Of a stretch of 64,000 nt of DNA, positions 5,984 through 17,420 are shown piece by piece; positions within the stretch are counted from its first letter, which is position 1, and every line of letters starts with the position of its first letter. The notes beneath the pieces are model-generated. The model was given only the letters and a program-made list of their open reading frames with translations. It ran no database searches and was not told where the DNA came from. Source of the DNA: Paenibacillus sp. FSL H8-0548 (lineage in GTDB: Bacteria; Bacillota; Bacilli; Paenibacillales; Paenibacillaceae); contig NZ_CP152049.1 in NCBI RefSeq assembly GCF_038630985.1, positions 3,057,501 to 3,121,500 on the forward strand, given 5' to 3'. Made by a program: the position numbers and the translations under genes.

Positions 5984-6173
5984 ACCATTATCGATCAAAA
6001 TCATCCGAATATTAGAACAAATCGTCCGTTTACTCCGATTTTATGGATAAAGATGTCTATTTCTCTTATTTTGTAATTTTTGTTCTGATGGTTTCCAATG
6101 TTATTCTATTTCGTTAGCATATTTTCCAGTCTCTTCACAAACAATGATAGTAAAAGGTGAGGGAAGTGCAGCA

Positions 6174-7046
6174 ATGAAGAGCAGGAATGAATGTTTAGAG
6201 AGAAAATCTGGAGCAAACAGAAATAGCGTGAGGATCAAAGCCTGTAAGAAAGCGAGCTTTATTATGGTTATTACTGGTTTTATTTTAGCTATTGGAAGCT
6301 TTAGTGTCTCTAATGAGGTCTCGGCAGAGCCGCAAGTGAACCGAACGATTTCCATTGTTATTGATGATTTTGGCAATGGAATGAGCGGAACAGCAGAAAT
6401 GCTGAAGCTTCCTGTAAAAATAACGGTAGCTATCATGCCTTTTCTGCCAACAACGAAGCAGGATGCAGAGGAGGCCTACCGCTTAGGCCATGATGTCATT
6501 GTGCATATGCCGATGGAGCCTAATAAAGGAATGAAAAAGTGGCTAGGTCCAGGAGCATTGACGACAGATTTGAATGATGCTGAGGTTAGGAAGCGTGTGG
6601 AGGAGGCTATCAACGATGTGCCTCATGCGATTGGTATGAACAACCATATGGGCTCGAAGGTAACATCAGACGAGAGAATGATGCGAATCGTGCTTAGTGT
6701 GTGCAAGGAGCGGGGCTTGTTTTTCCTCGATAGCCGGACCTCCTACAAAACCGTTGTGCCAAAAATTGCAGCGGAGATTGGTGTTCCGATCGTTTCCAAC
6801 GATGTTTTTCTAGACGATGTCCATTCGGTGGAGCATATTACGAAGCAGATTGGCATGCTGCGCAAGCATTTGGAAGCACACGTGAGCTGCATCACCATAG
6901 GACATGTTGGACCAGGCGGTTTGAAGACAGCCGCCGTTCTCAAGCAGTCTATCCCTGTGATGCAGCAAAACGTGCAATTTGTGAAGCTGACAGCGCTGAT
7001 TAATGGAGGATTAATGAATGATCCACTTGTATTGCCTAATTCCTGA
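6174..7046 (+). CDS. divergent polysaccharide deacetylase family protein (YibQ-type)
   Basis: A secreted protein of about 290 residues belonging to the divergent polysaccharide deacetylase family (PF04748 type). After a signal/anchor segment (FIMVITGFILAIGSFSV) come the family landmarks: SIVIDDFGNG, VKITVAIMPFLP, GHDVIVHMPMEP, AIGMNNHMGSKVTSD, FFLDSRTS and CITIGHVGPGG. It probably acts on cell-envelope carbohydrate; catalytic activity of this family is poorly defined. I chose ATG 6174 (GGTGAGG about 11 bases upstream) over ATG 6144, which has no binding site. Its last 36 bases overlap the end of the convergent amidase gene. Confidence 0.88.
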   Translation: MKSRNECLERKSGANRNSVRIKACKKASFIMVITGFILAIGSFSVSNEVSAEPQVNRTISIVIDDFGNGMSGTAEMLKLPVKITVAIMPFLPTTKQDAEEAYRLGHDVIVHMPMEPNKGMKKWLGPGALTTDLNDAEVRKRVEEAINDVPHAIGMNNHMGSKVTSDERMMRIVLSVCKERGLFFLDSRTSYKTVVPKIAAEIGVPIVSNDVFLDDVHSVEHITKQIGMLRKHLEAHVSCITIGHVGPGGLKTAAVLKQSIPVMQQNVQFVKLTALINGGLMNDPLVLPNS

Positions 7047-7712
7047 AGCGATAGCCGCAGCAATCTCCTCTTGACGCAGCGGATCTGTCAGCATAGCGCG
7101 ATCGCTGCCGCTGCTAATAAAGCCCATCTCAACGATTACAGCTGGCTGCTCTACCCGTTTGAGCAAATAAAACGTCTTTCCTTCACGTGGAAGGAAGGCC
7201 GTTTTTTGTTGTCGGTTAAGCGCATCCTGAATGCAAAAGGCGAGAAGTGAGCTTTCTCCATTCGTTTGATGCAGAACAAGCGGTCCTTTTTTCGTTGGCT
7301 TCTTGGACCAATTGACATGCAGGCTAATCAGGAGCTCACTTTCAATTTCCTCCGTAAGCTGGCGTCGATGCGATAAATCCTTGCGATGTCTGGAACGCGT
7401 CATATGCCAGCGATTGTCTTCACTTAACGCATAATCTCCTGTTCGATTAAGTACGGCGGGAATGTTGTGACTGCGCAAAATCGTATAGAGCTTTCGGGCA
7501 ATCGCCAAATTAATGTCTTTCTCGAGAATATCGGATGAAGTGGCTCCGCCATCTACGCCGCCATGTCCAACGTCAATAATGACAACGGTGGATGGAAGCG
7601 CCCAGTCCTGATCGGTGCCTACGGGCAGCATAGGCCAAGCAGCAGCACTGGACGAGCTGATACAAGAAGCGATCAAACAGGCAAATAAGACTAATGTCAT
7701 TCTACGAAACAT
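7011..7712 (-). CDS. N-acetylmuramoyl-L-alanine amidase, CwlD-like
   Basis: Zinc amidase (Amidase_3 fold) cleaving the MurNAc-L-Ala bond of peptidoglycan. An N-terminal signal segment (residues about 5-25) exports it. Zinc ligands are H50 in IIDVGHGGVDGGA, E64 in DILEKDINLA and H132 in LLISLHVNW; the catalytic Glu is E195 in VIVEMGFIS. The length (233 residues) matches CwlD, which makes muramic-lactam in spore cortex. CwlD normally works with the deacetylase PdaA; the convergent neighbour here is a different deacetylase family, but the pairing of amidase and deacetylase is suggestive. Other CwlD-type sporulation or germination amidases are possible. Confidence 0.85.
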   Translation of the reverse strand: MFRRMTLVLFACLIASCISSSSAAAWPMLPVGTDQDWALPSTVVIIDVGHGGVDGGATSSDILEKDINLAIARKLYTILRSHNIPAVLNRTGDYALSEDNRWHMTRSRHRKDLSHRRQLTEEIESELLISLHVNWSKKPTKKGPLVLHQTNGESSLLAFCIQDALNRQQKTAFLPREGKTFYLLKRVEQPAVIVEMGFISSGSDRAMLTDPLRQEEIAAAIASGIRQYKWIIH

Positions 7713-7774
7713 GTTGACGATACCTCCAGCTTGCTTTTGTCATAAGGTTATCGTGGCTATTTGGAGGAAAACTC

Positions 7775-7822
7775 ATGCATGTTTACTTACGGATACTGCT
7801 GGGCAAACTGAAAACATCATAA
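7775..7822 (+). CDS. 15-residue ORF with a strong ribosome binding site
   Basis: ATG 7775 follows TTGGAGGAAAACTC and encodes MHVYLRILLGKLKTS before TAA, 25 bases upstream of the yqzE-like start. The Shine-Dalgarno is as good as any in the window. It may be a leader peptide coupled to yqzE or a chance ORF; no homologue is known to me. Confidence 0.25.
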   Translation: MHVYLRILLGKLKTS

Positions 7823-7847
7823 GAAAAGAATTTAAGGGGTGGGAGAT

Positions 7848-8036
7848 ATGGCGAATAGCGATGAATATGTAAAATATATGACGGAGCAATTAGTAACCTA
7901 TCTGGATACGCCAAGAGCAGAACGAAAGCAGACCAGATCGTCAGCCAAAGCGCTAAGAGAGCCTTGGCTGACACGTTGGTTCGGCTGGGGACCGGTCAGC
8001 GTCATCCTATGGTGGAGAGGCAGATCAGAGCGTTAG
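7848..8036 (+). CDS. yqzE: YqzE family protein
   Basis: A 62-residue protein of unknown function. Features match the YqzE family of Bacilli: N-terminal DEYVKYMTEQLVTYLDTP followed by a basic stretch (RAERKQTRS) and a C-terminal WLTRWFGWGP hydrophobic segment. ATG 7848 is chosen because AAGGGGTGGGAG ends just upstream; GTG 7839 is in frame but inside that site. In B. subtilis yqzE lies by the comG operon and near yqhG/yqhH; the nearby yqhGH genes here preserve part of that synteny. Its stop overlaps the convergent gene by 4 bp. Confidence 0.85.
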   Translation: MANSDEYVKYMTEQLVTYLDTPRAERKQTRSSAKALREPWLTRWFGWGPVSVILWWRGRSER

Positions 8037-8926
8037 CGGTAGAAGCTGCCAAGCTCAAGCAAGAGCAGAACTGGAATATAGCGGCGAATGGTGCTGTCCT
8101 CTTCCGCTTCTAAAGCGACATAAATATGACCGCTGCTCCATTTGTTATAGCCGACAACAGACCACACATAAAGCATCTGACCATCAAACAGCTCTGCTGC
8201 ATAGCGGAGCTGTTCTTTGCTGTTTATTTTCGTGAATAAGGAGCTATAGGAGTCTGAGCGCAATGGAAGCGGCTGCTCGGTCAGCCAAGGCAGCTTATCA
8301 TAAGGATTGAATGAGGGCAGAACGACTTGCTTCAAGAGACTGCTTTTCCCAGCTGTGTAAAGCTGTTCGGCTTTAGGTATTTTGATGGTGGAAGCTGCAA
8401 GCCAATCGTTAGCCTCTGCAGGCAGCGCTTCGCCGCTGGCGGCATCTGTATAAAATTCATGATGATCTGCGTTCACTTTCCAAGCAGCGAGCAGCGGGTG
8501 GACATACAGTGCTTCTATACCAGCAGCTGGTTCTGTTAGCTCAAGCTGCTTGAGCGAGCGTGAGAGCGTGTGATTATCGAATAGGGGGCGGGTTCCGGAA
8601 CCATATTCGCCTAGCTGATAACCGCCGGCTTCAACGGCATGAACGATGAGGTAACCGACCGTAGTGCTGCTGTGTTTAACGAGCACCAGCCAGCTATGAG
8701 TACCTGGACCAATGGGAGAAATATCGAGCGTTGATTGTTTCCATTTGGCAAAAGCCGGCTGTACGGCAAGCTCGTCCACCCAGCGCTGCGCTTGCTCCTG
8801 AAGCGGCTCGTAGACAGAGGTGGAAATCGCAACGGCGGCAGCAGAATGGGGCTGTATTCCGCCAGCATACAATACGACAGCAGTTAACACGCATGCTGCT
8901 GTAAACCTAATGAATTTTTTTGACAT
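8033..8926 (-). CDS. secreted protein of unknown function
   Basis: I do not recognise this 297-residue protein. It starts with a clear signal peptide (MSKKFIRFTAACVLTAVVL followed by YAGGIQPHSAAAVA), then a soluble region with alternating beta-like segments such as SWLVLVKHSSTTVGYLIVHA and HIYVALEAEED. No cysteine is seen in the mature part and no catalytic motif is evident. ATG 8926 follows GAGGTGATAAAT; the frame extends upstream to 8965 without a binding site. It sits where B. subtilis has yqzG-type genes, between yqzE and yqhG, but resemblance to YqzG is not visible. Confidence 0.7.
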   Translation of the reverse strand: MSKKFIRFTAACVLTAVVLYAGGIQPHSAAAVAISTSVYEPLQEQAQRWVDELAVQPAFAKWKQSTLDISPIGPGTHSWLVLVKHSSTTVGYLIVHAVEAGGYQLGEYGSGTRPLFDNHTLSRSLKQLELTEPAAGIEALYVHPLLAAWKVNADHHEFYTDAASGEALPAEANDWLAASTIKIPKAEQLYTAGKSSLLKQVVLPSFNPYDKLPWLTEQPLPLRSDSYSSLFTKINSKEQLRYAAELFDGQMLYVWSVVGYNKWSSGHIYVALEAEEDSTIRRYIPVLLLLELGSFYR

Positions 8927-8992
8927 ATTTATCACCTCATTGCTATTGTAAGGGACATGCTTCAAGAAGACTGTTACAACATGTCGTGTGAG

Positions 8993-9017
8993 AGCGGCCT
9001 TGCGGCCGCTTTTTTTT
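8993..9017 (+). terminator. plus-oriented intrinsic terminator
   Basis: AGCGGCC (8993-8999), loop TTGC, GGCCGCT (9004-9010) and eight T (9010-9017). Its T tract makes it active on the plus strand only, yet the flanking genes are both on the minus strand. The nearest plus-strand gene is yqzE, ending 960 bases upstream. Confidence 0.75.
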
Positions 9018-9049
9018 GACGTATTGGTGCGGATAACGTCTAAATGCTG

Positions 9050-10009
9050 TCATTCGATGCCTTCGAGATGGAAGAGGCCGCAGTTAATGGCGGACGCAGT
9101 CACACGTGGCTCGTATTGCCAACGTATCTCGGATTGGCGCTGAGTAAATTGTTCCTCGATGGCTGGTTTATTTTCTTCAAGTCCATTCTTGATTAGTGGC
9201 TCATAATAGCCTCTAATTCGCTCAAGCTCTTCCTCAAGTCTTGAGGAAGCACTCTCCGCCCAGCTGTAATCATAGCTGCGAAGCTTGCGCTCCAGTGCTT
9301 GCTCAACGATGGCAAGCGCCTTGTTAAAGGAGATTCCGTTTTTGGTGATGTGAATATTGGCTGGCAGACGAGGTGTGAGCTTGCGCTCCAGCAGCCGATC
9401 GTAAAAATGCTCGACACATTGCCCCGTTGCCAGTGAAATGCCATAGCAATGAATTTCTTCTCGCTTGCGGTCGCATGCGAATTCCACCCGCATATTGACG
9501 CCAAGCCATGTGGTATAAGGAGTAGACGAAAAAGGATTAGCGCTGCGTTTCTCCGTCTCTTGGAACATTTGAACGAAGCTGCCTTTCGCCTTTGCCGCAT
9601 CGAACAGCTGATCCAGCTTGCGGGCGCCAAAAAAAAGATCCTCGCGAGGCACGCGTGCGGGAGCAGCCAGGCTTCCATGCACGAACCCCAATGAGCGTCC
9701 TAGCGCTGCGTTTGCCGCGGCATCCTGCGCTGCGATTGCTGGGTCTGCTTCCTCTAGGCTGACTTCATTTTTTTTCAATTCCTCTGCCGCGTCATACTTG
9801 TTTTTGTCCGTAACGAATAGGTAGGTCATCGTCTCGGGCTCACCGCCAATGCGGTCCACGAAGCTCCAATAATAGGGGCGATTCGTCAGCTCGCGATCAG
9901 CAAGGGGAGACAACTTTACCGTGAAATGAGAGGGCGATTTTTCTAAAATTGAACATTCTGTTGCCTCTAAATAGCGGCTTACAAATTTGTGCACCTGCTT
10001 CTCGTTCAA
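9050..10009 (-). CDS. yqhG: YqhG family protein
   Basis: A 319-residue protein of unknown function matching the Bacillus YqhG family. Landmarks: KFVSRYLEATECSILEKSP at the N-terminus, LTNRPYYWSFVDRIGGEPE, VHGSLAAPARVPREDLFFGA, and a C-terminal coiled-coil-like stretch LEEELERIRGYYEPLI ending with QSEIRWQYEPRV. It starts with TTG overlapping the yqhH stop (TTGA, 4 bp), so the two are translationally coupled, as in B. subtilis. It may assist the helicase; this is inferred only from the fixed gene pairing. Confidence 0.88.
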   Translation of the reverse strand: MNEKQVHKFVSRYLEATECSILEKSPSHFTVKLSPLADRELTNRPYYWSFVDRIGGEPETMTYLFVTDKNKYDAAEELKKNEVSLEEADPAIAAQDAAANAALGRSLGFVHGSLAAPARVPREDLFFGARKLDQLFDAAKAKGSFVQMFQETEKRSANPFSSTPYTTWLGVNMRVEFACDRKREEIHCYGISLATGQCVEHFYDRLLERKLTPRLPANIHITKNGISFNKALAIVEQALERKLRSYDYSWAESASSRLEEELERIRGYYEPLIKNGLEENKPAIEEQFTQRQSEIRWQYEPRVTASAINCGLFHLEGIE

Positions 10010-11829
10010 GGCTGCACCTCCACGGTTTGTCCAAGCGTATCTAAATTGACAAGCAAATCCGGGCCTGTCGGCAGCGGATGGTCTCCAGTGAGCACCTCTT
10101 CGCGGATGCGGCTAAGCGAAGAGCCCAAATGATTAATCTTTTGCTTCAGATCGGTGTCGTTTCCAGATTCGAGCAGCATTTTTGCAAGCCTTTGTTCAAT
10201 GGAGCCGTCACCCTTCTCAAATCGCTCCAGAATATGATCCAGCTCTCCGATTACGAGCTCGAATAAATTGATTTTTTCATGCAACAAATTGACGATATGC
10301 TCCTCAATCGTACCGATTGTGCAAAGGTTGTATATTTTAACATCCTCCTTCTGCCCAAGTCGATGCACACGTCCAATTCGCTGCTCCACTCTCATTGGGT
10401 TCCATGGCAGATCGAAATTGATCATATGGTGGCAAAACTGCAGGTTTATGCCTTCCCCGCCAGCTTCCGTAGCAATTAATATTTGAGCGCGGCCGCGGAA
10501 TAAATCCATCATCCAGTCTTTTTTGCCGCGGTTCATTCCGCCTCGATAGGGAACGGCAATCATATCCTGTGCACGGAAAAACTGCAGCAAATATTCTTGT
10601 GTGGCTCGGTACTCTGTGAAAATGATGACCTTGTCATTCATTTCTTTGACGAGCTCCATCGCTTTTTCTGCTTTCGTATTTGCTTTAATATTTTTTATTT
10701 TTTCTACAAGCTCCCATATTTTAGGACGCATAGGCGAGTCCTCTGACGTTTTCTTGAACAAATTAACGAGAGTCAAAAATACAGCATCGCGGCTGCTGCA
10801 TACCTCGCGCTGAAGCGTGACAAGAGAGAGCATACTGGAGAGGTCACCGCCGCTTTCCTCATAACGCTCCTTGACGAAGCTGGTAACGGCGTCGTACAGC
10901 GCTTTTTCTTCCTCAGACAGCGTAAGCGGAATGTTTTTAACAAAACGTTTCGTGAAATGAATGCCGCCGTCACCTCTACGATTCCGAATCATGATGCCGG
11001 ACAGCGCTTCCTGCAGCTGGTCTTCGTTTTTGGGCATCCGCTTGTCGACGACAAAATTAGCAGCAAAATCGCTTTGACCGCCAAGCTGACCTGGCTTAAG
11101 CAGCGTTATTAAATTAAAAAGCTCATCCATATCGTTTTGAATAGGAGTAGCAGTGAGCAGCAAACAATATTTTTTGCGAAGTAAATTAGCAAACTGGTAG
11201 TTTGTCGTTTTCTTGTTTTTCAGCTTATGGGCTTCATCAATAATGATTAAATCATAGTCGGTTTCAAGCACCAGCTCGCGATGCGGCTCACGCTTGGCTG
11301 TGTCGATAGAGGCAACGACGACATCGTAGCCCCAAGTATGCGCCTTCTTCTGAGCAACAGCAGATATGCCAAACTTTTGATTAAGCTCTCTGACCCATTG
11401 CAGCACGAGAGAGGCAGGTACGAGAATTAAAACCCGCTTGACGAGTCCGCGAACCATATATTCCTTGAGCACAAGACCGGCTTCAATTGTTTTGCCGAGT
11501 CCTACTTCATCAGCTAAAATAGCTCGACCTCCCATTTCATGCACGACCTTGCGCGCGGTGCTGATTTGATGTGCCATAGGCTCGAAGGAAGGCAGTGATC
11601 GCAGACATAGCAATTGCTCAAAGCTTTCAATCTTTTTGGCATGCTCAGCCTCCAAGGCAAGCTGGAATAACGTCCAGTCATCCCAAGGTCCGCCTTTGGT
11701 CATTCGGCCTTGCAGCTCATCAAACCAAGAGCGGTCACATTGAAGGTCGACGAGTGGATGAAGTTTTCGTGTGGCGATGGCAGCACTGTTCTCGGCTGAC
11801 GCAGCTTGCGGCGATGTAGGGAATGTCAT
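10006..11829 (-). CDS. yqhH: SNF2-type helicase YqhH
   Basis: Cytoplasmic SNF2/Rad54-like ATPase of about 607 residues. Helicase motifs: Walker A ADEVGLGKTIEAG near residues 106-118, DEAH near 198-201, LLTATPIQND (motif III), and in the second RecA lobe IIFTEYRATQEYL, ATEAGGEGINLQFC and QRIGRVHRLGQ (motif VI). ATG 11829 follows AAGGAGC with an 8-base gap; the frame runs to 11853 without a site. Coupled to yqhG. In Bacilli yqhH usually neighbours gcvT; here a divergent nrdJ lies upstream instead. The cellular substrate is unknown. Confidence 0.92.
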   Translation of the reverse strand: MTFPTSPQAASAENSAAIATRKLHPLVDLQCDRSWFDELQGRMTKGGPWDDWTLFQLALEAEHAKKIESFEQLLCLRSLPSFEPMAHQISTARKVVHEMGGRAILADEVGLGKTIEAGLVLKEYMVRGLVKRVLILVPASLVLQWVRELNQKFGISAVAQKKAHTWGYDVVVASIDTAKREPHRELVLETDYDLIIIDEAHKLKNKKTTNYQFANLLRKKYCLLLTATPIQNDMDELFNLITLLKPGQLGGQSDFAANFVVDKRMPKNEDQLQEALSGIMIRNRRGDGGIHFTKRFVKNIPLTLSEEEKALYDAVTSFVKERYEESGGDLSSMLSLVTLQREVCSSRDAVFLTLVNLFKKTSEDSPMRPKIWELVEKIKNIKANTKAEKAMELVKEMNDKVIIFTEYRATQEYLLQFFRAQDMIAVPYRGGMNRGKKDWMMDLFRGRAQILIATEAGGEGINLQFCHHMINFDLPWNPMRVEQRIGRVHRLGQKEDVKIYNLCTIGTIEEHIVNLLHEKINLFELVIGELDHILERFEKGDGSIEQRLAKMLLESGNDTDLKQKINHLGSSLSRIREEVLTGDHPLPTGPDLLVNLDTLGQTVEVQP

Positions 11830-12012
11830 TATGTGCAGCTCCTTCCGTAGCAAAAGGGATAAGTTATAAACAGTATTGCCTTTTCATTCAATATTAATAA
11901 GAAGCTGAATAAAAAAGAGGTAGGACAAGCAAATGCATGAGAGTGGTCATGTAAGCGATGACGATCGCGAATTACAGCTGAAAACGAATGTGAATATCAA
12001 TATGTGGTATAG

Positions 12013-12042
12013 TATAATGATTTAACAACACAATATATTGTG
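12013..12042 (+). promoter_or_regulatory. promoter -10 and NrdR-box-like palindrome before nrdJ
   Basis: TATAAT at 12013-12018 is followed by the perfect palindrome CACAATATATTGTG at 12029-12042, about 4 bases past the expected transcription start. This matches the NrdR box core. A weaker second half-site (CAATATGTG around 11998-12006) lies about 30 bp upstream. NrdR would repress nrdJ when dATP/ATP is high. No good -35 hexamer is seen. Confidence 0.65.
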
Positions 12043-12099
12043 CTAATGACAACCGAGATTTTGTACATAGTATTGTAGCTTGGTTATTTTCAGGAAGAG

Positions 12100-14721
12100 G
12101 TGGCACTATTGGAAAAGCTAGTCGGGAGTAAGCTAGAGGGATTGAGTGAAAAAATATTTTTGGATCGCTATGCTTGGAAAAATGCAGATACGAGTAATAC
12201 CGTTGTCGGTGATGTCGTGCTCGTCCTGACGAAAGATGATCCCAAGTTTCCTGTAAAAGAGGTAGGGGAGGTTGTTTCTCGTGAAGGCAGCAAAGTTTCG
12301 GTAAAGCTTAGAAACGGCGAGCTGTTTGAGTCCAGTGTGGATAAGCTTACTCTGACGATTGAGAAAACACCTGAAGAAATGTGGGATCGCCTGGCAAGCG
12401 CGATGGCTTCTGTGGAATCCGAGCCCCTGAAGCAGAAGGAATGGCAGGAAAAATTCAGATATATTTTGGACGATTGGAAGCTCGTCCCGGGTGGACGAAT
12501 TGCTGCTGGTGCAGGTGCAAGTGAAGAGCTGACCTTGTTTAACTGCTATGTAGTACCATCGCCAAAGGATAGCCGCGGCGGCATTATGATTACGCTCACG
12601 GAAATGACGGAGATTATGGCGCGCGGCGGCGGCGTTGGGATGAACCTGTCATCGCTGCGGCCGAAGCGTGCGATTGTTGCAGGGGTAAACGGTTCTTCCA
12701 GCGGTGCGGTATCTTGGGGAGGATTGTTTAGCTATACGACAGGACTGATCGAGCAAGGTGGAAGCCGTAGAGGTGCATTGATGCTCATGCTCAACGATTG
12801 GCATCCCGATGTGCTTGAATTTATAACCGTTAAGCAGACCATGGGCCAAGTGACAAATGCTAATTTGTCTGTATGCGTAAGCAACGCTTTCATGAAGGCA
12901 GTCAAGGAAGATGCGGATTGGGAGCTCGTATTCCCTGATACGAAGGAAGAGGGCTACGACGAGCTATGGAACGGTGATTTGGCGGAGTGGAAGCAGCTAG
13001 GCAAGCGGGTCATCCATTACAAGACGGTTCGTGCTCGGGAAATCTGGCAGGCTATTATTGATTCCGCATGGAAATCTGCTGAGCCTGGCGTCGTCTTTAT
13101 GGAGCATTACAATCAAATGTCAAACAGCTGGTATTTCAATCCAATTATTAGCACAAATCCGTGCGGTGAGCAAGGTTTGCCTGCATGGGGGGTATGTAAT
13201 TTATCAGCTGTTAATTTATCGAAGTTTTATGATGAAAAAAATAATGATGTCGATTGGGAAGAGCTTGCGAAGGTAACGCGTTGGTCAGTAAGGTTTCTTG
13301 ATAATGTTATTGACAAGACTCCTTATCATTTTGAAGAAAATGAACGCAATCAGAAGCTGGAGCGCCGTATCGGACTCGGAACTATGGGTTTAGCAGAGCT
13401 TATGATCAAGCTTGGCGTAACCTATGGCAGCGCGGACTCATTAGTATTTTTAGATAAATTGTATGGATTTATTGCACGTGAATCTTATTTGGCATCGACT
13501 GAAATTGCTGCGGAGAAGGGCTCTTTCCAAGCCTTTGATGCTGAAAAATATGTGCAAAGCGGCTTTATGAAGCATATCATTGCGGAATTCCCTGAGATTG
13601 GGGAGGCTGTTGCTGCGCAAGGCATGCGAAATGTGACGGTCCTGACACAGGCGCCAACCGGAAGTACAGGTACGATGGTCGGAACCTCGACAGGGATCGA
13701 GCCTTACTTTGCATTCGAATATTTCCGTCAGAGCCGGCTTGGCTTTGATAAGCAGGATGTTCCTATTGCTGCACAGTGGAAAGAGGCACATCCGGGAGAG
13801 GACCTGCCTGAATATTTTGTAACCTCGATGAGCTTATCAGCCGAGGATCATATTCGTGTACAGGCGGCGATTCAGCGCTGGGTAGACAGCTCAATATCGA
13901 AAACAGCAAATTGTCCGGCAGACTTCACGGTAGAAGAAACAGGGCGGCTCTATGAGCTGGCATTCGAGCTTGGCTGCAAAGGCGTAACGATTTACCGGGA
14001 CGGCAGCCGCGATGTGCAGGTGCTGTCAACGAAGAAGGAAGAATCGGCTGAGCCTGCGGCTGAATTGCCTTTGGAACCAGAACAATCAGCTTCACAAGAT
14101 ATAGTTAGCGATGAGCATTTTGACGCTGATCTGGTCGAGGCCGCTGTACCTGCTGCTCTGGTGCAAGCAGAGCAGGGACTGGACAAACAATATAAAAGCA
14201 GGCCACAGGTGCTTCGTGGAGCAACCTATAAAGTAAATACACCATTTGGCATGGCCTATATTACGATCAATGATCTAAATGGTACGCCAGGTGAAATCTT
14301 CTTGAATGTCGGCAAGGCAGGCTCGGATGTATTTGCCATGGCTGAAGCGTTAGGACGGGTATGTTCATTGTTCCTGCGCTATGGCGATCACGGCAATAAG
14401 GTTAAGCTGCTTATCAAGCACTTGAAGGGGATTGGCGGCTCCGGTGCGATTGGCTTCGGGGTAAATCGCGTGGAATCAATTGCTGATGCGGTGGCGAAAT
14501 CGCTGGAGCTGCATCTTGCCAGCGCAATGGATCAGGGAATTGTGATCGATTCGTTAGCTGAGCATGCTACAGCAGCGGAAACTAACCAATCCTCCTATTC
14601 GCAAAATAAAAAGGTAAGCGCCGGCTCGCTAGATTTATGCCCTTCCTGCGGCTCAGCCGCATTGATCAATATTGAGGGCTGCAAGCAGTGTAGTAACTGC
14701 GGCTATAGCAAATGTAATTGA
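12100..14721 (+). CDS. nrdJ: adenosylcobalamin-dependent (class II) ribonucleotide reductase
   Basis: Makes deoxyribonucleotides using a B12-generated thiyl radical, without oxygen requirement. The active site reads NPCGEQ (N353, radical C355, E357); the redox pair is C149 (LFNCY) and C366 (GVCNLS), with the 11-residue 355-366 spacing typical of NrdJ. NLSSLRPKRA and GGSRRGALMLML belong to the barrel. The tail (about residues 690-873) has a C-terminal Cys cluster, LCPSCGS...CKQCSNCGYSKC, which would shuttle electrons or bind zinc. GTG 12100 is given as start, but AGGAAGAGG abuts it; TTG 12109 has better spacing. Its leader has a NrdR-box-like palindrome. Length 873 is normal for the long NrdJ form. 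Confidence 0.95.
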   Translation: MALLEKLVGSKLEGLSEKIFLDRYAWKNADTSNTVVGDVVLVLTKDDPKFPVKEVGEVVSREGSKVSVKLRNGELFESSVDKLTLTIEKTPEEMWDRLASAMASVESEPLKQKEWQEKFRYILDDWKLVPGGRIAAGAGASEELTLFNCYVVPSPKDSRGGIMITLTEMTEIMARGGGVGMNLSSLRPKRAIVAGVNGSSSGAVSWGGLFSYTTGLIEQGGSRRGALMLMLNDWHPDVLEFITVKQTMGQVTNANLSVCVSNAFMKAVKEDADWELVFPDTKEEGYDELWNGDLAEWKQLGKRVIHYKTVRAREIWQAIIDSAWKSAEPGVVFMEHYNQMSNSWYFNPIISTNPCGEQGLPAWGVCNLSAVNLSKFYDEKNNDVDWEELAKVTRWSVRFLDNVIDKTPYHFEENERNQKLERRIGLGTMGLAELMIKLGVTYGSADSLVFLDKLYGFIARESYLASTEIAAEKGSFQAFDAEKYVQSGFMKHIIAEFPEIGEAVAAQGMRNVTVLTQAPTGSTGTMVGTSTGIEPYFAFEYFRQSRLGFDKQDVPIAAQWKEAHPGEDLPEYFVTSMSLSAEDHIRVQAAIQRWVDSSISKTANCPADFTVEETGRLYELAFELGCKGVTIYRDGSRDVQVLSTKKEESAEPAAELPLEPEQSASQDIVSDEHFDADLVEAAVPAALVQAEQGLDKQYKSRPQVLRGATYKVNTPFGMAYITINDLNGTPGEIFLNVGKAGSDVFAMAEALGRVCSLFLRYGDHGNKVKLLIKHLKGIGGSGAIGFGVNRVESIADAVAKSLELHLASAMDQGIVIDSLAEHATAAETNQSSYSQNKKVSAGSLDLCPSCGSAALINIEGCKQCSNCGYSKCN

Positions 14722-14884: not shown

Positions 14885-15269
14885 CTTTTCTATGGTTTGA
14901 AGGAGAAAATTCCCGAAATTATTATCGAAAAAAATGTCTCGCACCAAGATATATTGCTTGCAGCTAAATTCGCCACACAAACCATATTGTACAGCCGACG
15001 CCGAAGTTCTTTAACTTGAAAAGAATTGAGTCCTCTTTTATTTAAATTAACGTGGGAAAGACTACTCATATTCTTTAGTTCAATGACAGGAACGGAAAAT
15101 CACATTTGACAAATGTCCAGAGCGATTTTTTGTTTTAAATATTTTGAACCTCATCATAGTTATACTTCCACTCTAAGATTCCATCAAGCTTACAACTGCA
15201 ATTCTTAAACCTGTGATGTTTCATTATTGCTGGGTGCATGAACAAAGAGAAAACAGTTACGTTGGCACA
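14885..15269. other. intergenic region without a supported gene
   Basis: About 385 AT-rich bases with no ribosome-binding-site-led reading frame on either strand. I see no tRNA, clear promoter or terminator. It leads into the first of four cassette-like boundary elements. Confidence 0.4.
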
Positions 15270-15328
15270 AATAAGCTCCGTACTTTACTATGCGTGGGGC
15301 TTGTTATGCTAACGGGCGGTTTAGTTAG
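15270..15328 (+). repeat. cassette-like boundary element, copy 1
   Basis: A hairpin (AATAAGC, 15270-15276, with GCTTGTT, 15299-15305; further CTCC/GGGG pairing) is followed by ATGCTAACGGGCGGTTTAGT and TAG. CTAAC (15309-15313) and GTTAG (15324-15328) form an inverted pair. The order hairpin, TTAT-G, CTAACGGG recurs at 17.0 and 17.1 kb; a partial copy is at 15953. Confidence 0.5.
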
Positions 15329-15375
15329 ATGAAAAATGATAAAATAAGGTATCTAATCTTTTTGGAGGGAAACTT

Positions 15376-15936
15376 TTGGGAACAAATTTATATTTTGTAC
15401 GGCATGCTCATTCCATATATACCCCAGAAGAATTAACAAGACCGTTATCGGAACGCGGCTTTAGTGATGCTAAAAAAGTAAATGAAATATTACAAAAAGC
15501 GAATATTGATCATGTAATCTCCAGTCCGTACAAACGAGCATTTCAAACAGTCGAAGGCATTGCTAAATACATAGGTGAAGAAATTGTGATTGAAGAGGAT
15601 TTTAAAGAAAGAGTCCTGTCTGAAAGACCAGTAGACGATTTTAACTATGCCATTAAACGAGTGTGGGAAGATTATAATTTTTCGTTTGAAGGTGGAGAAT
15701 CGAATGAAAATGCCCAAAAGCGAGGGGTAAGAGTAACTTTACAGGTCTTGGAGAGGTTCAGTACTAAGAACATTGTTATAGGAACACATGGAAATATTAT
15801 GGTTTTAATTATGAATTATTTTGATAAAAAATACGATTTTAATTTTTGGAAGCAACTTGATATGCCAGACATATATAAATTGTCATTCGATGGAACTGAA
15901 TTGAAAGAGGTTATTAGGTTATGGGGAAGGGATTAA
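15376..15936 (+). CDS. histidine phosphatase family protein (phosphoglycerate mutase-like fold)
   Basis: A 186-residue cytoplasmic phosphatase-like protein. The RHAHS motif near residue 9 supplies the phosphorylated His; HVISSPYKRAFQTVEGIA contains the second catalytic Arg, and FEGGESNENAQKR and IGTHGNIM (second catalytic His) complete the site. The family hydrolyses diverse small phosphates, and the substrate is not predictable. TTG start with GGAGGG nearby. The gene is AT-rich relative to nrdJ and stands alone between two boundary elements, like the next gene, which suggests horizontal acquisition. Confidence 0.88.
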   Translation: MGTNLYFVRHAHSIYTPEELTRPLSERGFSDAKKVNEILQKANIDHVISSPYKRAFQTVEGIAKYIGEEIVIEEDFKERVLSERPVDDFNYAIKRVWEDYNFSFEGGESNENAQKRGVRVTLQVLERFSTKNIVIGTHGNIMVLIMNYFDKKYDFNFWKQLDMPDIYKLSFDGTELKEVIRLWGRD

Positions 15937-15952
15937 GAAAAAAACTCATTAA

Positions 15953-15973
15953 GTTGACGGGATAAATTAGTTA
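15953..15973 (+). repeat. cassette-like boundary element, copy 2 (partial)
   Basis: GTTGACGGG (15953-15961), five bases, then TTAGTTA (15967-15973), directly after the phosphatase stop. It matches the GCTAACGGG-N-TTAGTTA part of copy 1. A clear hairpin before it is not seen. Confidence 0.35.
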
Positions 15974-16089
15974 AACACAAAATGGAGCAGTTGCAGCCGG
16001 GCAGTATCCTCAAGAAACATTGGCGAGATTTTCGTTGCAATAACACTCTGAAATTTCTATTATAAGGGTATTACGTTGGGGGTGGGCTT

Positions 16090-16962
16090 GTGAAAACAAT
16101 AAAGGTTTATCATTATGACGCATTTAGTAATATTCCTAATATGGGAAATCCAGCAGGGGTAGTATTGGATGGTGAAAATCTTACTGAAGAGCAGATGCTA
16201 GAAGTGGCAGGAAAAGTAGGCTTTAATGAAACGGCTTTCCCACTTCAATCCGATATCGCTGATTTAAGAATTCGTTTTTTTACGCCGGGTCATGAGATAA
16301 ATCTTTGTGGTCACGCAACAATGGCAACTATCTATGCATTGAAAACAAAAGGTTTATTGGGTGGTAAAACTGATTTCACCATTGAAACAAAAGCAGGGGT
16401 TTTACCGATAAGAGTAATTTCAAACGAAGGACTTTACATAACAATGAGGCAAGCAACTCCTCAATTTCAGGAATTCAATGGTTCTCTTCAAGAATTAGCT
16501 ATTTCTATGGGGATTGATGAGGGTGACATAGAGACAGAATTACCAACTTTGTATGGCAGCACAGGAACATGGACATTATTGATTCCAATAAAAAGTCTTG
16601 CTGCTTTCAGACGAATGATACCAATTAATAAACTTTTTCCAAACATTCTGAAGGAAATGCCTAGAGCATCTCTTCATCCTTTTTGTTTAAAAACATACGA
16701 TTCCAAAGCACATATGCACGCTCGCCATTTTTCATCACCGTATTCTGGTACAATTGAAGACCCAGTTACTGGCACTGCCTCTGGTGTAATGGGAGCTTAT
16801 TATTCAAGATATATAAAGTCAGATTCTTTATTACATCTTTTGATAGAACAAGGTCAGGAAATCGGAAGGAGTGGCAGCGTGCAAGTAACAGTAACAAATG
16901 GCGATGTCATAGAAGTAACGGGAAATGCTGTTTATATAAAAGAATTTGAGGTTTCGATTTAA
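16090..16962 (+). CDS. PhzF family isomerase-like protein
   Basis: A 290-residue protein of the PhzF/diaminopimelate-epimerase-like fold. Landmarks: [19 protein letters not shown] at the N-terminus, GFNETAFP (catalytic Glu near residue 47), [16 protein letters not shown] and the C-terminal [17 protein letters not shown]. Family members are isomerases or epimerases of small metabolites; a phenazine cluster is not present, so the role is unknown. GTG 16090 follows GGGGGTGGG. Like the phosphatase gene it is AT-rich and lies alone between boundary elements. Confidence 0.88.
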
Positions 16963-16998
16963 CCGAATTGAACAAACGGGAAACGATAATACAACAAC

Positions 16999-17118
16999 AA
17001 TAAGGCTGCCGACAGGATATGAATCGGCGGTCTTATTGCGCTAACGGGGAACTTTTGATCAATAAACACCTGTTTACGAAGCTGCCAGCATGATTGGCGG
17101 CTTCATTATGTTAAGGGG
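16999..17118 (+). repeat. cassette-like boundary elements, copies 3 and 4 in tandem
   Basis: Copy 3 is a 14-bp stem with two wobbles (AATAAGGCTGCCGA, 16999-17012; TCGGCGGTCTTATT, 17024-17037), then GCGCTAACGGGG to 17049. Copy 4 is a 10-bp stem (GAAGCTGCCA, 17078-17087; TGGCGGCTTC, 17095-17104), then ATTATGTTAAGGGG to 17118. No gene lies between them, so the pair resembles an emptied cassette. Confidence 0.5.
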
Positions 17119-17420
17119 TGGATACTTTGAATATATAGTATCCCGTTAGAGGAAAAGTTAAGTGGGATCTCCTATGCAACGCGAAAGTGTCATCGCGACA
17201 TCATAGAATTTATATAACTATCAAGACTAATCCCTGCTAGATTAACGCTAAAATCAAATATACGAAGACTGGGATTTATATAGTTAAATTACCATATTTT
17301 ATCATTCGTTTCGTTCCAATATATAGTAATTACAGTATAGTCTTTAGTTCTTCTAGTAAAACGTCTTTCTGATACGCTGTATAATTAAGGCTGTGAAAGG
17401 AGAACTCATACGAAGGTTAA
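17119..17420 (+). promoter_or_regulatory. xylanase upstream region
   Basis: About 300 bases without a gene. TATAAT at 17380-17385 is a candidate -10, but no consensus -35 precedes it, so an activator may be needed. Nothing else is supported. Confidence 0.35.

Follow-up and report, generated by a model that had tools for sequence, protein, structure and literature searches.

A probable cassette-array remnant in Paenibacillus sp. FSL H8-0548 and a candidate site-specific recombination system of Bacillales

We analysed a 64,000-nucleotide stretch of Paenibacillus sp. FSL H8-0548 (the window; NZ_CP152049.1, positions 3,057,501 to 3,121,500), in which a locus at 15248-17132 holds two genes among four boundaries. 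This locus, in a genome of 7.35 Mb, is very probably a short, decayed remnant of an array of cassettes that belongs to a site-specific recombination system of Bacillales. A preliminary description, made from the letters of the window, had proposed a distinct site-specific cassette system here. The system is well supported across genomes, whereas precise gain or loss of a unit in relatives was not found. Comparison between genomes revealed the core sites, how arrays are laid out, that gene and terminator units move separately, where the breakpoints fall, and the co-occurrence and placement of a recombinase. The system is probably a third, independently evolved cassette platform, beside integrons and pdif modules. 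An Xer-derived recombinase encoded in an array unit would shuffle genes and terminators on chromosomes and plasmids, by a single-border crossover that tolerates unlike spacers. No description of such a system of Bacillales was found among the titles and abstract openings of the open-licence papers listed.

Architecture of the boundary element

In each boundary, a terminator hairpin is framed by two core sites of dif-like build. A full element runs from a 5' core through the hairpin, behind which T is common, to a 3' core; in 28 complete elements the core-to-core length was about 57-72 bp. Each core site is an inverted repeat whose arms are separated by 6 or 7 nt, approximately ATTAAGCTAAC-GGGCAG-GTTAGTTGAAT. 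From 417 distinct elements, the consensus was aTTaagCTAAC-GGGaaAC-gaTAgtt for the 5' core and agcTAAC-GGGCAG-g.Tagtt for the 3' core. The spacer was 7 nt long in 220 of the 239 parsable 5' cores and 6 nt long in 105 of the 112 parsable 3' cores, the remaining elements being unparsed. Gene units start with GGGCAG-GTTAG and end with AAGCTAAC; terminator units start with GGGACAC- or GGGAAAC-GATAG, contain the hairpin and end with CTAAC.

It had been noted from the window that the cores of integron attC sites (RYYYAAC/GTTRRRY) are not matched exactly. This holds for the consensus AGCTAAC-GGGCAG-G.TAGTT, in which AAC and the start of GTTAG agree and the outer positions differ. Two elements were folded whole as single strands. 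The complete element of one locus (L051) took an attC-like shape with both stems (z -2.98); in the window element, unlike L051, the hairpin alone formed. In Vibrio, hairpins are genome-specific. Such hairpins were not found here, the mean identity being 0.59-0.65 within seven genomes versus 0.58-0.61 between genomes.

Distribution of the element

Relatives were searched with a covariance model, as the preliminary description had proposed. The model was built from 19 complete elements of other genomes, and its E-values are rough. The element was found in 91 of 146 family (Paenibacillaceae) genomes at E <=0.01, in a search with stricter filters and at most 28 candidates scored per genome. Across the phylum, 398 Bacillota genomes were drawn and 6 had it at E <=0.001, namely the window genome, four others of its family and one of its class. 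The window genome itself gave 12 model matches at E <=0.02 and 17 at E <=1, partly clustered (2218588-2230714, 3262765-3263990 and 6037025-6038444).

The pattern GCTAACGGGN(2-10)TTAGTT occurred in 66 of 148 family genomes. By hand count it was present at 132 places, versus 20 for the reversed pattern, so some of the single matches are due to chance. A stricter core pattern was found in 110 stretches of GTDB contigs, from Paenibacillus, Bacillus, Neobacillus, Peribacillus, Lederbergia, Fictibacillus, Sporosarcina, Brevibacillus, Aneurinibacillus and relatives. A hidden Markov model (HMM) gave 1253 matches of at least 10 bits versus 0 in the reversed sequence of the same loci. Most of these loci had been selected by the motif or the first model, and the training elements are among them; the figure speaks for specificity and not for frequency. 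One predicted viral contig (L404, IMG/VR contig IMGVR_UViG_2744054793_000013) carried the exact GGGCAG-type core pattern.

Arrays of mostly single genes

In two genomes (G040 and G077), elements are strung in arrays of tens of copies, and 400 kb from four genomes contained 128 element matches, a few of which are opposite-strand shadows. In eight array regions of five genomes, 183 of 184 elements (>=20 bits) lay on the same strand. The median interval between elements was 982 bp, and 8 of the 184 overlapped a called gene by more than 30 bp. Intervals shorter than 4 kb (n=150) held one gene in 86 cases, two in 32, three to five in 26 and none in 6. Most array genes were co-oriented (210 of 245, with 35 opposed).

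Genes and terminators appear to move as separate units

Fetched loci were aligned with each other by BLASTN, loci with near-identical DNA being set aside; some pairs lie within one genome. Among 1856 alignment ends away from the locus edges, 412 had an element no more than 10 bp away in both sequences and a further 364 in a single sequence, compared with 4.0% of bases this close to an element. A 1150-bp unit was 95-99% identical in five loci of four genera, and a 1050-bp unit was 94-98% identical in six loci of three genera. The hairpins around these units differed between loci, except that L021 and L159 have the upstream one in common. The shared identity spans CTAAC of the upstream 3' core to GCTAACGG of the downstream 5' core.

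Breakpoints were located with 32 homologous gene-unit pairs (>=80% identity), which come from 38 of 336 units. The upstream hairpin differed in 29 of these pairs and the downstream one in 31. Upstream of the unit, identity was at baseline to the base before CTAAC (0.45 vs 0.46), and behind the upstream spacer it was high (0.86 vs a baseline of 0.40). At the downstream end it stayed above baseline to the G of GCTAAC (0.68 vs 0.49) and was at baseline in the spacer (0.55 vs 0.53, 0.45 vs 0.43). Identity thus dropped to baseline within CTAACGGG at either end. Terminator units gave the complementary picture: among 57 pairs at least 94% identical (from 407 units, some pairs within one genome), 53 had unlike neighbours on both sides. 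Unlike hairpins around like genes, together with unlike genes around like hairpins, therefore indicate that gene and terminator units mostly move separately, with breakpoints within the same few bases. The moving unit is mostly a gene between cores, without the hairpin.

An Xer-like recombinase in element-bearing genomes

Genes for tyrosine recombinases of about 285 aa were found at or near arrays in several genomes; one copy (L181:18156-18998) stands behind a 5' core where the G040 array ends. At >=70% identity the recombinase was present in 22 of 146 genomes, and all 22 have elements (Fisher p 1.6e-5, on the assumption that both searches covered identical 146 genomes; a 23rd match, 33% identical, was set aside). 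Many copies are broken. Of 30 fetched recombinase loci, 22 had a readable start, and eight were dropped (truncated copies, duplicates or the 33% match). A 5' core (E <0.02) lay within 220 bp upstream of 17 of the 22 copies, and a 3' core (E <0.1) lay downstream of 9. These flanking cores indicate that the recombinase gene occupies the usual position of the hairpin.

In Paenibacillaceae the gene lies inside the element and reads in array direction. Bacillaceae-side copies were inspected by eye: the upstream core was inverted relative to the gene in 9 of 12, so these nine would read against the array, and none was seen at L281, L283 and L300. Among 19 other Bacillales chosen for the core, 7 had a subfamily of the recombinase at 47-54% identity (E <1e-57), and an Aneurinibacillus genome had a partial copy at 92%. 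Relatives were also found on 8 PLSDB plasmids, all below 60% identity, three annotated as tyrosine-type recombinase/integrase and five unannotated. In the region 6127-14048 of a Sporosarcina psychrophila plasmid (L405), genes for NUDIX, merA, merR, an IS110 transposase and an M1 peptidase lie to one side of the recombinase, and a GNAT gene lies to its opposite side.

Judged by family models, the array recombinase is an Xer-like tyrosine recombinase. The PF00589 domain was recognized with E 2.7e-35, and the best PDB matches were XerC-like 4a8e and XerD 1a0p. The XerC, XerA and XerD family models gave 195, 195 and 194 bits, below their cut-offs of 335, 220 and 330; the IntI model TIGR02249 gave 90.8 bits against a cut-off of 265. 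R138, H229, R232, H255 and Y264, which we take to be the catalytic positions of the family (R, H-x-x-R, H, Y), were invariant in 19 aligned copies.

The recombinase leader often pairs the Shine-Dalgarno stretch with an upstream CCTCYC. As a conserved RNA it is weakly supported, with 6 consensus pairs, of which 2 show compensatory changes. Such pairing might perhaps limit recombinase expression from read-through, a tentative reading of the predicted fold. In the leaders L209-L236, a conserved AAAACCTCYCC..GGGAGGTTTT hairpin would cover the Shine-Dalgarno sequence.

Paenibacillaceae recombinases of 380-440 aa were another candidate, and were dropped because no core was found at their loci (six loci, five of them of the family) and the holders G039 and G132 are element-free. 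Those in L143-L147 and others have an extra N-terminal region and match the IntI model in two stretches, the best at 122.2 bits (cut-off 265); their ends, with an SPLD motif, are IntI-like. The top IntI-model match (126.8 bits, L142) was also rejected: it looks like XerD by eye and adjoins fur-like and phosphopentomutase genes.

The window locus

The boundary pair at 16967-17124 is strong, and the boundaries at 15270 and 15953 are degenerate (Table 1). The covariance model, built from other genomes, matched 16967-17060 with 36 bits (E 5.3e-7), and nhmmer found two tandem elements sharing a core, at 16968-17048 (E 1.8e-9) and 17035-17124 (E 2.9e-8). At >=8 bits, nhmmer gave no match for the boundaries at 15270 and 15953. 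Single-stranded DNA folding, compared with shuffles, was strong at 16996-17040 (z -5.6) and 17060-17115 (z -3.4) and weak at 15262-15306 (z -0.4) and 15984-16020 (z +1.2).

The preliminary description had listed four related boundaries, three of them with a hairpin. Related letters are indeed present at all four places, but two of them are strong and two degenerate rather than four alike, and the hairpins are borne out for the last two and weak for the first two. One gene per interval, a histidine phosphatase (PF00300) and then a PhzF-like protein (PF02567), was confirmed by open reading frame (ORF) and Pfam. Both genes had been called more AT-rich than their flanks. With 34.0% GC for the phosphatase gene and 37.2% for the PhzF gene this is true against the neighbouring genes (48.6% upstream, 46.9% downstream; window 44.2%), but the spacers flanking the two genes are likewise AT-rich (34.9% and 32.2% GC).

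The short motif CTAACGGG, with at most one mismatch, was found 25 times in the window versus 25.8 expected. Because this count matches expectation, the motif alone is no evidence. An inverted CTAACGGG copy lies at 17142-17149 on the minus strand, slightly past the last core. Rfam gave no match at gathering level in the window, with chance matches only at E up to 10, and none at gathering level in seven element or recombinase loci.

Table 1. Features of the cassette-array locus in the window (all on the + strand)
Feature	Position	Strand	Evidence
Degenerate boundary element	15248..15327	+	Covariance model 17.7 bits, E 0.034; hairpin weak, z -0.36
3' core GCTAACGGGCGGTTTAGTT of first boundary	15308-15326	+	Sole core-pattern match genome-wide
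Cassette gene 1, histidine phosphatase branch 1, 186 aa	15376..15936	+	ORF; PF00300 E 6e-23
Degenerate 5'-type core (ATTAAGTTGACGGG..TTAGTT)	15948..15973	+	Covariance model 12.6 bits, E 0.74; else by eye
Decayed terminator hairpin, second boundary	15983..16015	+	Resembles GGAGCAG..GCAGCTGCTCC hairpins by eye; no folding, z +1.2
Cassette gene 2, PhzF-family isomerase, 290 aa	16090..16962	+	ORF; PF02567; TIGR00654 E 1.3e-81, above cut-off
5'-type core, 7-nt spacer GGGAAAC	16967..16994	+	Start of covariance-model match 16967-17060
Terminator hairpin 1	16998..17038	+	z -5.59; 0/200 shuffles as good
Core common to both tandem hairpin units (GCTAACGGGGAAC)	17035..17066	+	End of HMM match 1, start of match 2
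Terminator hairpin 2	17078..17104	+	z -3.38; 0/200 shuffles as good
Degenerate last core (GTTAAGGGGTGG)	17105..17132	+	End of nhmmer match 17035-17124; ORF list, no gene before 17448

Both window gene families occur as cassettes elsewhere, but are more often found outside arrays. For PhzF, the best 30 of 63 matching genomes were read, with 29 loci outside the window. A homologue 76% identical, from another genus (L377), stands directly behind a full element, and another, 75% identical (L387), stands behind a core-like site (9.9 bits). For the histidine phosphatase, the best 30 of 101 matching genomes gave 29 loci outside the window. Two homologues about 45% identical (L368 and L372) are directly behind an element match, and a third (L348) has a weak match (12.7 bits) just downstream. 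The remaining PhzF and phosphatase loci had no match of at least 9 bits.

Observations that weigh against a cassette array

Several observations count against the window being the remnant of an array moved by a dedicated recombinase. The first two of its four boundaries are without significance. The array had been described as one without an integrase; this is right for the window genome (no recombinase match at E <=1e-40), and the window copy is therefore taken as a remnant, but the system does have a dedicated recombinase in other genomes. As many as 69 of the 91 element-bearing family genomes, the window's included, are without recombinase, and 11 of the 19 other Bacillales gave matches of about 33% only, as from general Xer enzymes. 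Loss, divergence or action in trans has to be invoked for the missing recombinases. Units are also not always cut in the same way: among 64 element-bounded alignments, 15 take in the upstream element from its very start and 8 cross the downstream one, so the hairpin sometimes travels with the gene.

The preliminary description had looked to precise presence or absence at syntenic loci. No pair of occupied and empty loci was found, and none of 20 collinear indel candidates among the fetched loci was at a site. The gene upstream of the array was matched in 37 of 40 relatives, with no common gene order, by eye, 1.2-1.5 kb past it. The 29 loci of relatives gave just two weak matches (L318, 15.6 bits; L325, 12.6 bits), in a test insensitive to degenerate boundaries, as the window's first boundary was likewise unmatched in L309.

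The samples should be read in the same light. Loci were mostly fetched for a motif or model match, and the array statistics describe a chosen sample because the regions had been selected as arrays on one strand; gene calls come from a simple script. Unit pairs and alignment ends are not independent, with some pairs sharing a genome, and some of the searched genomes, or genomes of the same species, had supplied training elements for the models.

Comparison with integrons, pdif modules and other explanations

If the system were a true integron, the elements would be attC sites in integrase-less clusters (CALIN), with IntI supplied from elsewhere. An integron cassette carries the whole attC when it moves. 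Shared features are long arrays, co-oriented and with one gene in most intervals, a variable and possibly foldable hairpin between two simple sites, the two-stem shape of L051, a dedicated tyrosine recombinase and recombinase-less remnants. Published work gives Firmicutes among the phyla with integrons (PMC8618304) and complete integrons in Firmicutes as extremely rare (PMC9024848). In the latter, IntegronFinder 2.0 detected a few CALIN in different Firmicutes genera, which may be some of the same loci; among the 12 of 16 places shown, no Bacillales genus is named with CALIN. Our data nevertheless make an integron unlikely. None of the 146 family genomes has a protein above the IntI cut-off, and the recombinase is Xer-like by score, although it stays below the XerC, XerA and XerD cut-offs too. 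The moving unit here is mostly a gene without the hairpin, the downstream hairpin differing in all but one of the unit pairs despite the few alignments that cross it, and terminator units move separately. The Paenibacillaceae recombinase, moreover, reads in array direction from within an array unit.

Insertion of the hairpin element was considered as well. In this explanation, similar to miniature inverted-repeat transposable elements (MITEs), the recombinase copy would be an autonomous mobile element, the short elements its derivatives and the genes passive. The recombinase is indeed flanked by the same kinds of cores as the hairpin, and near-identical hairpin units lie between unrelated genes. 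We regard it as quite improbable, since the genes themselves move, one gene unit being 95-99% identical in four genera among unlike neighbours, with breakpoints in both flanking cores, and since insertion among resident genes would not line up unrelated single genes by the tens in one orientation.

Xer enzymes are general in bacteria, and the arms of pdif sites are 11 bp long. Modules like those of Acinetobacter plasmids, moved by housekeeping XerC/XerD, would at least in part fit the core, with its two arms around a 6-bp spacer (about 28 bp in all), as in a pdif site (PMC10132070, PMC13141974), and small single-gene modules, shuffled singly, of two unit types that tend to alternate. Modules of the pdif kind are bounded by inversely oriented sites (PMC10132070 / PMC13141974), in contrast to the direct repeats on one strand seen here. 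The spacers here are of 6 or 7 nt by unit type, and the arrays are mainly chromosomal, of tens of units, with hairpin terminators. A dedicated recombinase inside elements accompanies them where present, and hardly any of the 398 Bacillota genomes drawn have the element, despite general Xer enzymes. This explanation is thus very improbable. Judged by the IntI test the system does not qualify as an integron, and it does not qualify as a pdif module either, each comparison failing at least one defining feature.

Lastly, the boundaries could be ordinary intrinsic terminators with a chance motif, both genes being native. The hairpins are terminator-like, the bare motif occurs no more often in the window than expected, and most homologues of both window genes lie outside arrays. 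Such terminators could hardly account for the phylum-wide specificity, for the absence of HMM matches from the reversed sequence of the motif-chosen loci or for the clustering of breakpoints, and we give this explanation almost no credence.

A possible mechanism and its implications

For the Bacillales cassette system, a dif-type core together with an Xer-like enzyme makes recombination at duplex sites the simplest reading. The recombinase would act on these sites, most likely binding both arms of each core, with strand exchange predicted near the CTAAC/GGG junction. A gene or terminator unit would be excised, possibly as a circular intermediate, and rejoined at another site, and the terminators would insulate neighbouring genes. 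The movement would resemble that of integron cassettes in Gram-negative bacteria. In integrons, only one strand pair is exchanged. The breakpoints at one core border, together with movement between unlike spacer lengths, suggest such an exchange here too. A folded-strand step is also possible, as a complete element can fold like attC (L051). Both window genes may have arrived by this route.

If this is true, much of Bacillales would have its own equivalent of the integron, with tens of genes per chromosome and units common to genera, in which genes and terminators move as separate parts. It would offer a non-IntI comparator for the origin of cassette systems, and might explain the scattered single genes of GNAT, NUDIX and phosphatase type in these genomes.

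Other sequences next to the cores

At 21 distinct sites 5' of GCTAACGGG, of which 9 were read, a sequence that ends in a hairpin and CATGGATG or similar replaces the terminator unit. IS1202-family elements target pdif (PMC10132070 / PMC13141974); by analogy, the CATGGATG-type hairpin sequence may be the end of a core-targeting transposon. In four loci (L006, L047, L048 and L050), a conserved stretch of about 200 bp (GGCAACAACCAGAAAAGGATTAATCTACCCC..) comes before this hairpin end. The sequence gave no Rfam match. Tandem AATAAAGTATTAGACTG repeats stop about 13-15 bp 5' of the core at 5 of 6 sites (L029, L054, L085, L093 and L125), and recall a transposon end with repeated transposase-binding sites. 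Finally, a conserved unit, GGACAAGAAC..ACCGATTAG..CTAATCGGT..TTCATTAA, stands 5' of the core in the place of the hairpin unit in L045, L065, L087, L098, L101 and L117; it occurs at 11 distinct sites, 9 of which were read.

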